Assembly (NCBI RefSeq): GCF_001017175.1 | Contig: NZ_LCYG01000014.1 | Location: forward strand, 62,001-126,000 | DNA length: 64,000 bases | Source of the DNA: Microvirga vignae | GTDB taxonomy: Bacteria; Pseudomonadota; Alphaproteobacteria; Rhizobiales; Beijerinckiaceae | Direction: 5' to 3' | Part shown: positions 2,365 through 18,397 of the stretch, piece after piece | Layout: every line of letters starts with the position of its first letter | Position numbering within the stretch: position 1 is the first letter of the stretch | Program-made: the position numbers and the translations under genes | The notes under the pieces: model-generated | The model's input: the letters and a program-made list of their open reading frames with translations, nothing else | What the model was told of the DNA's origin: nothing | The model's database searches: none

Positions 2365-2613
2365 TCAGCGCGACCACTTTTGCTCGTTGATTTCCGGCTC
2401 GTCGTGAAAGCGTCGCTCCATGCGAATGGCGATGCGGCGCACGGTGCCGTGGCTGCGGAAGAGCATCTCCTCGAGCTGGCGGAACATCGTCAGATCGGCC
2501 GTGCTCGGTCGGTAAGACGTATCACGCCAGTAGCCGTGGATGAGGGCGACGGCCTGTTGCACAAGCCTGGCCGCTTCCGTGAGCGGCGGTTTGGGTTTGC
2601 GGCGGAAGACCAT
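2365..2613 (-). CDS. Small hypothetical protein, 82 residues
   Basis: I do not recognise this protein. It is very basic at the N-terminus (MVFRRKPKPPLTEAARL) and appears mainly helical, with no membrane segment or signal peptide. The ATG at 2613 was chosen because AAGGGGAG lies seven bases upstream on the minus strand; an upstream in-frame ATG lacks a ribosome site. A candidate promoter (-10 at 2836-2841, -35 at 2860-2865) would give a leader of roughly 215 bases with a 9-bp hairpin at 2641-2663. The strong ribosome site and the promoter argue for a real gene even though no function can be assigned. Confidence 0.6.
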   Translation of the reverse strand: MVFRRKPKPPLTEAARLVQQAVALIHGYWRDTSYRPSTADLTMFRQLEEMLFRSHGTVRRIAIRMERRFHDEPEINEQKWSR

Positions 2614-2640
2614 GGTGACACTCCCCTTGTGAAGCGAAGC

Positions 2641-2663
2641 GACCACCAGCACCGCTGGTGGTC
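2641..2663 (-). promoter_or_regulatory. Hairpin in the leader of the 82-residue gene
   Basis: A perfect inverted repeat, GACCACCAG / CTGGTGGTC with a five-base loop, lies about 28 bases upstream of the ATG at 2613. It could be a regulatory hairpin or an operator. No matching family is recognised. Confidence 0.4.
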
Positions 2664-2835
2664 GGGGAGTAGTAAGACCGCCGCAAGACGGCCGCGATGA
2701 CCTTTAGGCTTTCGCCCTGGACATGCGCCATCGCCTCCCCGGCCATAGCTGGGAAGGCATCGTTGACGGCCGATACCGGCCGCTGTTGGAGAGGTTCTCA
2801 CGCCCCAGAACCGGGTACGCCCGGCTCCGGTGACA
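2664..2835. other. Probable untranslated leader, no gene recognised
   Basis: If the candidate promoter is used, this is transcribed leader on the minus strand. It includes several short GC-rich inverted repeats and an 18-codon open frame (MPSQLWPGRRWRMSRAKA) that has no clear ribosome site. I assign no function. Confidence 0.3.
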
Positions 2836-2865
2836 AGATAACACGTGACAGCGGTGAAGGGTCAA
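2836..2865 (-). promoter_or_regulatory. Candidate sigma-70 promoter for the 82-residue gene
   Basis: On the minus strand, TTGACC (2860-2865) is followed after 18 bases by TTATCT (2836-2841). This is a reasonable housekeeping-type promoter pointing at the 82-residue gene. It is predicted by eye only. Confidence 0.4.
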
Positions 2866-3011
2866 TGCACTTGCCGCGTACAAGCCGCATCCTCCACCGT
2901 CGGTCCAGATGGCGTAACCGGGATCCCTCTCTCGGCATGGCCGTCCCCCGACTTGATCCGAGATCAGTTCCAGCCATCCACGTTTGTGCGCATCGTCGAT
3001 GAACCCTTCCT

Positions 3012-3101
3012 CGTCATCCCCGGCCTTGTGCCGGGGATCCACGTCTTGGGAGCCACAGCGGTTTGAAGACGTGGATGCCCGCGCCAAGCGCGAGCATGAC
3101 G
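3012..3101. repeat. Dispersed palindromic repeat, 90 bp
   Basis: CGTCATCCCCGGCCTTGTGCC at the left end mirrors GCATGACG at the right end. The inner arms are CCACGTCTTGG and GAAGACGTGGAT around a 20-base spacer. It is one of the clearest copies of the family. A degraded fragment also lies upstream around 2935-2978. Confidence 0.8.
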
Positions 3102-3145
3102 CGGGGCCATGGAGGCGGCAGCAGGAAAATGTTCTCCATTTGTTC

Positions 3146-3174
3146 TTGACAATTGTCCTAATCTGGGCCATATT
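3146..3174 (+). promoter_or_regulatory. Sigma-70 promoter for the structured RNA before engB
   Basis: A perfect TTGACA (3146-3151) is followed after 17 bases by CATATT (3169-3174). Transcription would begin near 3181, exactly where the long foldable RNA begins. No ribosome site or open frame follows, which suits an RNA gene. Confidence 0.6.
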
Positions 3175-3180
3175 GGGTTT

Positions 3181-3340
3181 GTCCCGGCTCACCGAGGGGC
3201 GCGCTCGCGAGGCGTCGCAGGTTGTGGAGCTGGGAGCGGTCCTGCCGGATGGCTGAACGCCAGCCGCCGGGCAGGAGGCCAGTCGCCACCTCAGGTGGGA
3301 TGGACCGCCTAAAGAAGCCGTGCGCGAGGAGCCGCTTGGC
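3181..3340 (+). ncRNA. Candidate structured RNA of about 160 nt, possibly 6S-like
   Basis: The stretch folds as one closed, rod-like RNA. The 5' CGGCTC (3185-3190) pairs with GAGCCG (3329-3334), and CGCGC (3200-3204) with GCGCG (3322-3326). GCGGTCC (3236-3242) pairs with GGACCGC (3302-3308). An internal hairpin CCTGCCGG...CCGGGCAGG encloses GGCTG/CAGCC, and CCACCT/AGGTGG forms another. Length, closed terminal stem and a consensus promoter in front are what is expected of 6S RNA, the RNA polymerase-sigma70 regulator. I cannot confirm the family from sequence alone. Another unassigned small RNA or a long engB leader remains possible. Confidence 0.5.
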
Positions 3341-3530
3341 TCTTCACACACTTCAGACATCGAGCCGGACCGCTCCTCGCGCCCCCTCGATCCCTCATCC
3401 TCGGAAGGCTCTCACGCCCCGAGGACACAGGCGCTTGCCGTTTTCCCGGACCCACCCACGGCCCCCATCATTTCACCGTTGTGCCGCCCGCGACCTTGAA
3501 CAGCCCGCACGGAGCGGCGATAAGGATCTC
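3341..3530. other. Intergenic, nothing recognised
   Basis: Between the structured RNA and engB I see no gene, repeat or clear promoter. Confidence 0.3.
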
Positions 3531-4187
3531 ATGACCGATACGGCACCTGACACCGACCCCTTCCGCGAGATCGGCCGCAAGCTCTTTGCGGGCGAGGCGG
3601 ATTTCATTTGGGCTGCGAATTCCCTGAAGAACCTGCCGCCCCAGAGCAAGGTTGAGATCGCCTTCGCGGGACGCTCGAACGTGGGCAAGTCGAGCCTCGT
3701 GAATGCGCTCACCGGGCGCAATACGCTCGCGCGCACCTCGCACACGCCGGGGCGCACGCAGCAGCTTAATTTCTTCAACATCAATGACCGCCTCCACCTC
3801 GTGGACATGCCCGGCTACGGTTATGCGGCCGTGGACAAGGAGAAGGTCCATGCCTGGACGCAGCTGATCCACGACTACCTGCGTGGCCGCGCGAGCCTCG
3901 CCCGGGTTTATGTGCTGATCGACGCTCGCCACGGCATCAAGCCGGTCGATGAAGGGGTTCTGGAAACGCTCGGCACCGCTGCCGTCTCCTACCAGATCGT
4001 GCTGACCAAGGCGGACGAACTGAAAAAGGGCGAACTGGAGAAGCGGATCGCCGACACGGCCGAGAAGATCTCCAAGCGCGCCGCCGCCTATCCGGAGGTT
4101 CTCCCGACTTCCAGCCGCACGGGCTTGGGCATTCCCGAGCTGCGCGCCGGAATCGCCCGGCTGCTCGGCGAAAGAGGCGCGCTGTGA
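3531..4187 (+). CDS. engB: Ribosome biogenesis GTP-binding protein EngB (YihA/YsxC)
   Basis: A 218-residue GTPase required for late assembly of the large ribosomal subunit. All GTPase motifs are present in order: G1 GRSNVGKSS, the switch threonines in [11 protein letters not shown]3 DMPGYG, G4 TKAD and G5 SSRTG. The start at 3531 is supported by AAGGAT just upstream and by the normal EngB length. The frame stays open further upstream, but that sequence overlaps the structured RNA and is not EngB-like. The stop overlaps the GTG start of the DUF423 gene by four bases, so the two are probably translationally coupled. Confidence 0.95.
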
Positions 4188-7084: not shown

Positions 7085-8272
7085 CTATTCGACGATGCGC
7101 AGGTCGCGTCCTTGAAGCCTCAGCATCTCGGCGCGAGCTTGAGCATCGCTATCTTCGAATTCGAGCGTCTCGATCCTCTCGCCACGCTTGACGATCTTTT
7201 CCGTCGAGACGCGGATTTGCGCCACATCGTCCTGCGCCTGACGGAAGTGAGCATCGAGCTTAGCTACGCGGCTGTCGAGGCGGCTCACATCTTCGAGAAG
7301 TTTCTGCACCTCGATCTGGATCACACGCGCTTCCTCGCGGATGCGCGCGTCGCGCACGAGCGCTTGCATCACCTGAATAGCGAGCGTGAGAAGAGACGGC
7401 GAAACGATCACGATACGGGAGCGATGGGCCTTCTGCACCACATCATCGAAATGCTCAGCCAAATCCGCATAAATCGACTCCGCCGGCACGAAGAGCATTG
7501 CGATATCCTGCGTCTCGCCGGGAATGAGATACTTTTCCGCGATGTCCTTCACGTGCACGAGCATGTCGCTACGCACCTTCGCGGCGGCACGGGCACGCGT
7601 CTCTTCCCCTCTTGCTTCACGGAAGGAGGTGAAGCCTTCCAGTGGAAATTTCGCATCAATGACGAGACCGCGCGCGTCGCCTGGCAGACGCACGAGGCAA
7701 TCGGGCCGCGTGCGATTGGAGAGTGTTGCCTGGAATTCGAAAGCATTCGGGGGCAGCCCATCGCGAATGATTGCCTCCATGCGCCCTTGGCCATAAGCGC
7801 CTCGACTTTGCTTGTTGGCGAGGATGTCCCTCAGCCCGACGAGCTCGCCTGTGAGGTTGCTGAGGTTCTGCTGAGCCGCATCGATCACGGCAAGGCGCTC
7901 GTTGAGCCTCGAGAGGTTCTCGCTCTGATGGCGCGTCGAGGCTTCAAGCCCCTGCCCCACCCGATGTTGGAGCCCATCAATCCTCTCCGAAACCATGCGT
8001 ATGAAGTCGCTCTGGCGGGAGCCGAAAACTTCGGCCATAGTCTGCATGCGCCCCGTCATCTCCGCCTGGATGCGCGTGAGCTCGGCCACCTTGTCGTCCA
8101 TCTCACGAGTGCGCTCCTCCGCAACCGCTGCTTCCAGAGCCTTCTCCCGGCGCGTCTTCAGGAGCAGCACGGTCACAAGTGTGAGGAGCAGCAGGCTCAA
8201 AGCCGCCATGCCGATGACGATGTGCCCCCAGGTCAGGGCATGATTGCCGAGGATCAGGACAATATCGTTCAT
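7085..8272 (-). CDS. rmuC: DNA recombination protein RmuC
   Basis: A 395-residue RmuC family protein. One N-terminal transmembrane helix (about residues 15-38) is followed by a long coiled coil (EERTREMDDKVAELTRI onward) and the conserved RmuC nuclease-like core with GAYGQGRMEAIIRD, DCLVRLPG, LVIDAKFPLE and FVPAESIYADL. The aspartate and lysine of VIDAKFP are the PD-(D/E)XK-like residues. RmuC limits inversions at short repeats in E. coli. The start at 8272 has GGAAG seven bases upstream; an in-frame ATG at 8299 has none. It diverges from def. Confidence 0.92.
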   Translation of the reverse strand: MNDIVLILGNHALTWGHIVIGMAALSLLLLTLVTVLLLKTRREKALEAAVAEERTREMDDKVAELTRIQAEMTGRMQTMAEVFGSRQSDFIRMVSERIDGLQHRVGQGLEASTRHQSENLSRLNERLAVIDAAQQNLSNLTGELVGLRDILANKQSRGAYGQGRMEAIIRDGLPPNAFEFQATLSNRTRPDCLVRLPGDARGLVIDAKFPLEGFTSFREARGEETRARAAAKVRSDMLVHVKDIAEKYLIPGETQDIAMLFVPAESIYADLAEHFDDVVQKAHRSRIVIVSPSLLTLAIQVMQALVRDARIREEARVIQIEVQKLLEDVSRLDSRVAKLDAHFRQAQDDVAQIRVSTEKIVKRGERIETLEFEDSDAQARAEMLRLQGRDLRIVE

Positions 8273-8356
8273 GGCCACGCTTCCGGTTGACGGCGACATC
8301 CGAACATATCACGAACGATTTGACCATCCTTCTATAAGCCCTTATCTCCCGCGATC

Positions 8357-18272: not shown

Positions 18273-18301
18273 CGGCTGCAAGGCTTTGGGAAACTCGAAG
18301 G

Positions 18302-18397
18302 TGGGAGGCTGGACGAAGACCCGTTCGGTCTCGTTAGGGCTGCTTCCTTCCGGACCTGACCCGGTTGGCGAGTGAGACGTCCCTCGCCAACCTCCCA
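18302..18397 (-). ncRNA. ffs: Signal recognition particle RNA (small bacterial type)
   Basis: On the minus strand the sequence contains the invariant SRP RNA apical loop, GTCAGGTCCGGAAGGAAGCA, which binds Ffh. The 5' GGGAGGTTGG pairs with the 3' CCAGCCTCCC (with a G-U pair), closing a hairpin of roughly 96 nucleotides. This is the short 4.5S-type RNA. It sits about 30 bases upstream of dnaX, a familiar location in alphaproteobacteria. Ends are set from the terminal stem. Confidence 0.92.

Follow-up and report, generated by a model that had tools for sequence, protein, structure and literature searches.

The stretch that precedes engB in the window (the whole 64,000-nucleotide stretch of DNA that was analysed) is probably one gene of a new multi-copy family of structured noncoding RNAs that, judging from its upstream sequence, would be under SOS control in Microvirga. 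The element recurs in many copies, with a LexA-type box and a promoter, a covarying fold assigned to one strand and, frequently, a boxA-like tail, and the copies are homogenised inside genomes. Among the readings considered, the data favour a stand-alone RNA gene family over its main rival, a selfish element, and exclude 6S RNA as the family. No description of the element was found in the open-licence PMC literature. The features of the window copy and of its neighbour are listed in Table 1.

Table 1. Positions of the element, its subdomains and the neighbouring gene in the window
Feature	Position	Strand	Remarks
LexA/SOS-type box GTTC-N7-GTTC, candidate	3131..3145	+	GTTCTCCATTTGTTC; abuts the -35
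Sigma-70-type promoter	3146..3174	+	TTGACA 3146-3151, 17-base spacer, CATATT 3169-3174
Conserved structured RNA domain (model R1)	3179..3390	+	comparative alignment
P1 hairpin	3185..3232	+	3185-3190/3227-3232; double-sided changes in 5/6 pairs, 93.7% of cells paired
Near-invariant 24-base core in P1 loop	3194..3217	+	GAGGGGCGCGCTCGCGAGGCGTCG; inner helix 3199-3205/3211-3218
Three-way junction	3236..3321	+	3236-3240/3317-3321, 3241-3245/3271-3275, 3276-3279/3307-3310
Long 3' hairpin	3322..3382	+	3322-3325/3379-3382, 3335-3342/3362-3369, loop 3343-3361
CCCTCG, candidate pseudoknot with P1	3384..3389	+	complementary to CGAGGG 3193-3198
Possible terminal hairpin TCCTCGG/CCGAGGA	3398..3425	+	3398-3404/3419-3425, read from sequence
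Site where other copies carry boxA	3433..3448	+	43-58 nt after CTCGA; window copy without match
Promoter-like TTGAAC-17-GATAAG before engB	3496..3524	+	outside the element
engB (yihA/ysxC)	3531..4187	+	TIGR03598, 225.1 bits, above cut-off

Relation to 6S RNA and to known families

The first-pass annotation of this locus had read it as a promoter-linked structured RNA, possibly 6S RNA. The first part of this reading is supported by the comparative data, namely the LexA-type box with the promoter, the covarying fold and the strand signal described below. As for the second, the likeness consists in a promoter beside a G+C-rich folded RNA of comparable size, the two being promoter-linked structured RNAs of the same size class. 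However, the Rfam 6S covariance model gave no RF00013 match at the locus, permissive threshold included, whereas each of the six genomes tested has one RF00013 match elsewhere, which in the own genome is a single canonical 6S gene (G000:C87:16207-16363, 91.3 bits). Moreover, the element is multi-copy and its conserved fold is branched, unlike the long rod with a central bubble that is the hallmark of 6S RNA. The missing match, the separate 6S gene, the many copies and the branched fold together rule out 6S membership, and the probability that we would still assign to it is negligible.

At the locus, no Rfam 15 family was found over threshold, and a permissive scan of positions 2900-3600 returned three weak matches, none of them 6S. 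Over the window and 25 loci, no Rfam 15 family was found at the element at gathering score, and a laxer threshold on 8 loci gave chance-level matches only. Elsewhere in the window, a bacterial small SRP RNA lies on the minus strand (18300-18396, 56.8 bits). Br-REP1 and Br-REP2 of Bradyrhizobium are short, intergenic, folded palindromes in many copies (PMC5082802), and the element resembles them in being intergenic, multi-copy and folded. In contrast to the element they have, as far as the description in that paper goes, neither a promoter nor a branched fold, and the consensus sequences given there are unlike it by eye; identity with Br-REP1/2 was rejected on this difference of consensus and architecture. 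The Rhizobiales-1 motif, which PMC2864571 lists as a candidate Rhizobiales motif without Rfam accession, resembles the element in this respect.

Copies in Microvirga and relatives in other genera

Fourteen matches in the own genome correspond to 11 dispersed copies, as three of the matches are 3' fragments of other copies in the list. A broken one among the 11 lacks the promoter part (G000:C68:12707-12839; L023, L316), and another contains a run of N. Positions 3100-3360 of the window match 32 of 61 genomes. These comprise 31 of the 37 genomes from the own genus, the own genome counted, and a single one of the 24 that represent other families of the order. The 6 genomes of the genus without a match show that the element is dispensable. 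The 24-base core word, with two mismatches at most, was found in 12 of 199 genomes of the family, the reversed control giving 0 among the genomes listed. One of these 12 genomes (G166) is judged to be a chance match, and its locus (L058) was left out because the match lacks a promoter and looks like coding sequence. Within the genus, 6 of the 10 genomes drawn contain the core word, in 8 (own genome) to 23 copies, and 4 have none. The carriers among the 80 stretches listed, out of at least 117, comprise many Microvirga species (including M. lupini), Enterovirga aerilata, Rhizobiales bacterium YIM 77505 and a few MAGs. A plasmid origin of the element was rejected, as positions 3120-3440 match none of 72,556 plasmid records.

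A search of 397 genomes of the order with model R1 gave matches in 8, one of which is the own genome. In the other seven, the E-values range from 3.2e-11 to 9.2e-4 per genome; three matches near 1e-3 could be due to chance given the size of the search. All seven show the P1-core arrangement by eye, and one of them (G566) also has TGCTCTTTGAA further down. With the locus of one of the three near 1e-3 (G585, probably a Bradyrhizobium) as a DNA query, matches turned up in 25 of the 26 genomes from its genus, between 3 and 51 per genome and most of them covering only the 3' part of the query; one 64-base match lies in a Bradyrhizobium plasmid. Among 11 loci compared from this search, 9 have a core like AGAGGGGCG and 8 a 3' CCCTCT. 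Homology of the G585-type loci is likely rather than proven because the R1 scores are modest: the query and its near twin reach 27.6 and 30.1 bits, four other loci 8.6-12.2 bits, and four more give no match at E of 1 or less. No Rfam family was found at the element in the G585-type loci or in the R1 relatives. By sequence comparison, Enterovirga carries relatives of the element, and Bradyrhizobium probably does so too.

Promoter and LexA-type box

The promoter proposed in the first-pass annotation is confirmed, TTGACA, CATATT and the 17-base spacer being present with agreement at 10 of the 12 consensus positions. This match is unique within positions 2600-3700, where shuffled sequences lead one to expect 0.1. 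Among the copies with enough upstream sequence, a LexA-type box abuts the -35 in 125 of 148 (identical stretches were removed before this count and before the 136-copy boxA count given below, several loci being one place fetched twice). The box is lacking in 23 copies, 21 of which come from other genera or MAGs, the rest being L160 (M. calopogonii) and L186. In the own genome, GTTCN7GTTCTNGAC occurs at 10 places, all ten of them element copies, the reversed control giving 2 places. LexA-type boxes also precede the own-genome genes lexA (GTTCCCGCTGTGTTC) and recA (GTTCTTTTTTTGTTC and GTACCCACTTTGTTC, both on the strand opposite recA), and GTACCCACTTTGTTC differs by one base from the box of 5 of the 10 own-genome element copies. 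GTTC-N7-GTTC is given as a LexA motif of Alphaproteobacteria in PMC8565304, and the element has this box at its promoter in common with the LexA regulon genes of the class; unlike those genes, the element is noncoding and multi-copy, and the box is missing in its relatives outside Microvirga.

The switch of the element in Microvirga looks like a DNA-damage (SOS) switch. SOS control would not be general across the family, since the LexA-type box is absent in Enterovirga and the other genera, where the promoter bears TAGGAA or TTCCTA motifs in its place. In the copies from other genera (L318-L326, L059-L084) TTCCTA/TAGGAA is located within the promoter spacer or close to it, at the place of TCCTAA in Microvirga. 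This promoter motif may represent a second operator. Elsewhere in the window, a candidate SOS box, GTTCGTGATATGTTC, is found on the minus strand (8302-8316), 3 nt upstream of ORF 7085-8299, whose product we take to be RmuC-like.

A conserved, branched fold

The alignment of 29 Microvirga copies, picked for diversity among the shorter forms, yields a consensus fold of 38 pairs in which 97.6% of the cells are paired. Double-sided changes affect 12 of the 38 pairs (80 cells), and in 500 shuffles, which ignore relatedness among the copies, none matches any of the five measures. Sliding the consensus structure by 1-3 columns leaves just 2-4 pairs with double-sided changes, an edge that arises partly because the structure was predicted from the same alignment. 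The conserved domain of the window copy, itself a member of the R1 training set, scores 165.4 bits with model R1. Most of the covariation sits in P1, and double-sided changes are absent from the core's inner helix and from the top of the 3' hairpin; the invariance of the core is partly circular because the core word served to fetch copies. Across the family, G is almost absent from the loop of the 3' hairpin (22 of 593 bases). Inside Microvirga, the candidate pseudoknot consists of complementarity alone, with no covariation. G-U cells outnumber A-C cells by 137 to 8, one invariant U-G pair contributing 29 of the 137, so that the promoter strand is the RNA strand.

This fold is not the one drawn in the first-pass annotation. 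The fold of the single sequence is not above chance (z -1.52, 17 of 200 shuffles folding equally well). The two long-range stems then described, 3185-3190/3329-3334 and 3236-3242/3302-3308, have 74.3% of their cells paired in the 29 homologues against 72.8% in shuffles, 5 of 500 of which reach the observed value, and 4 double-changed cells against 4.0 in shuffles. Their 5' strands pair elsewhere, 3185-3190 with 3227-3232 (with strong covariation) and 3236-3240 with 3317-3321. Covariation among homologues is present for a different, longer and branched fold and not for those stems. The span of the RNA had likewise been drawn too short at its 3' end, at 3340, the conserved domain and the possible hairpin after it extending beyond this point (Table 1). 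A search for an intrinsic terminator at the locus found none. The ORF list offers no open reading frame that would explain the element, and the longest crossing frame is the upstream extension of the engB frame. A coding function is unlikely, no conserved frame having been noticed and the copies differing by indels of varied length.

The boxA-like tail

A boxA-like match, G[CT]TCTTTGACA, follows the short hairpin in 84 of 136 copies within two mismatches and in none of the reversed sequences; it is absent in 52 of the 136 copies overall and was not found within this limit in the window copy (L001). In a stricter set of 59 copies, defined by a 3'-end pattern that dropped the others, including 16 of the 20 of G016 (the boxA test also leaves out G135), 32 have the tail, always 43-58 nt downstream of CTCGA; among 2950 shuffled regions, 42 have it. 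The rRNA leader of the own genome carries TGCTCTTTGACA, and all 12 rRNA leaders compared from G001, G007, G017, G035 and G036 have TG[CT]TCTTTGACA, the gamma-proteobacterial boxA consensus being GYTCTTTAANA (PMC5725501). The rRNA operon leaders of the genus thus have the same boxA as the tail of many element copies, but there is no other likeness, by eye or in one BLAST search against a partial leader, and no rRNA follows the element. An rRNA-leader origin of the whole element was rejected on these grounds, boxA being all that is common to the 12 leaders by eye, and the BLAST search of 500 bases starting at the element against the partial leader locus of the own genome giving a best E of 0.055. 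In Enterovirga, GCTCTTTGAA stands at the boxA place in the 11 copies of sufficient length. Among the copies of this genus (L299, L301, L302, L304-L311), REP-like sequences lie inside the longer ones, and a hairpin seems to follow boxA.

Gene neighbourhood

Of 41 genomes of the genus, 40 yielded engB. Among the 30 engB loci examined, only two, in the own genome and in G034, have the element; therefore it is no engB leader. Its placement before engB, by which the first-pass annotation had described it, is incidental, the other 28 loci being without it. TTGAA..GATAAG precedes engB in all six upstream regions compared, five of them from loci without the element. A general role as engB leader was rejected on the count of engB loci and on the occurrence of all four gene arrangements. 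Among 96 copies from 7 genomes, 33 are codirectional with their neighbours, 15 opposed to both, 27 divergent and 16 convergent, and 5 were not callable with the simple gene caller used; L315, with the run of N, and L316, without core and promoter part, were left out of this count. The window copy was filed as opposed to both neighbours and is properly divergent, which makes the tandem comparison 33 to 14; the open frame of engB extends into the element, and the gene caller missed this gene for that reason.

It could be argued that the element is a portable promoter-leader, in which an antitermination complex loaded by way of the RNA and its boxA would drive expression of the next gene, a reading that we consider improbable. 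The boxA-like tail would suit it, as would the excess of tandem copies transcribed with their neighbours over those against them (33 to 15, p 0.013, a value that is too small, since sites common to several species were counted more than once) and downstream neighbours such as gyrA, ettA, aroC, rpsB, typA and ligA. These belong to a picked, not random, selection that also includes metX, pdxJ, hisS, hisZ, dnaX, groES, recA and a ligase-associated exonuclease; in an earlier, less even sample, 88 of 131 downstream genes were codirectional. On the other hand, the convergent copies and those opposed to both neighbours speak against a leader, the boxA is independent of the direction of the next gene (23/41 versus 8/16, p 0.77), and engB has a conserved promoter-like sequence of its own and mostly lacks the element. 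In addition, the constant position or direction before related genes that marks a cis leader or riboswitch was not seen. Two copies adjoin recA, L304 upstream of this gene in Enterovirga and L006 near it in G023.

Homogenisation of the copies and insertion sites

Comparison of the 59 copies, which come from 5 genomes, gave a mean identity of 0.746 within one genome (413 pairs), against 0.616 between species at the same site (25 pairs, 17 with both flanks alike) and 0.562 for other cross-genome pairs (1273 pairs); these differences are inflated by length classes, and G016 contributes just 4 of its 20 copies. In 48 of 50 same-site comparisons, a copy is more similar to its best match within its genome than to its counterpart at the same site in another species. 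Nine copies in G198 are 99% identical, and very similar copies are also found in Enterovirga. Gene conversion of the kind that acts on rRNA genes probably maintains the similarity among the copies of a genome. It explains the shared sites more simply than recent spread within a genome, which would leave the same picture at sites that are not shared.

Homogenisation also fits a selfish element, and we regard it as possible, though clearly less probable than an RNA gene family, that the element is a non-autonomous mobile or selfish one whose promoter and fold serve its own spread, for example through an RNA or single-strand intermediate timed to DNA damage by SOS induction, with no host function. 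The copies are dispersed, patchy and on both strands, their orientation to neighbours is biased just mildly, and the element is at engB in so few genomes; the near-identical copies of G198 and the very similar ones of Enterovirga point in the same direction. Many copies with inconsistent orientation are named in PMC11109978 as a sign of mobile or repeat motifs, and the element answers to this description. Against this, several insertion sites are common to species, as the 17 pairs with both flanks alike attest, and old copies keep fold, promoter and box intact. Nor was a transposase noticed among the neighbours listed. Furthermore, no terminal inverted repeats or target duplications were seen, the flanks being too diverged or repeat-rich for exact edges, and the empty-site analysis, with three of 174 candidate pairs inspected, gave no clean edges. 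Just upstream of the window copy (3009-3104) lies a REP-type 39-nt inverted repeat, 77% complementary, and similar stretches flank several copies.

Proposed mechanism and significance

Returning to the RNA gene family, the box abutting the sigma-70 promoter in most copies suggests repression by LexA, which would hold most Microvirga copies off, and joint induction, DNA damage switching on many copies together. The RNA would start near 3180 and would fold into P1 with its near-invariant loop, the three-way junction, the long 3' hairpin and then a short hairpin, after which, in many copies, an rRNA-type boxA would provide an RNA signal for NusB-S10. The uniformity of the copies within a genome suggests a common product that is needed in dose and acts in trans, the most likely route being a partner, protein or RNA, that binds the core loop. 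A more specific and very unlikely variant would have the SOS-induced RNA titrate the NusB-S10 antitermination complex: on damage, ten or so copies would be derepressed, their boxA-bearing transcripts would be decoys for NusB-S10, and rRNA synthesis would be lowered until repair, a global brake reminiscent of 6S RNA but acting on antitermination rather than on the sigma-70 polymerase. The window copy can be tested alone, because its box, promoter and fold are intact and the neighbouring gene keeps its own promoter-like sequence.

If it is transcribed, the element would constitute a structured RNA family absent from Rfam 15, of which a genome has some ten to twenty copies in many species of Microvirga and probably more in Bradyrhizobium. 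A pool of noncoding RNA would then be tied to the SOS response. The element also looks like a case of concerted evolution outside the rRNA and tRNA genes.
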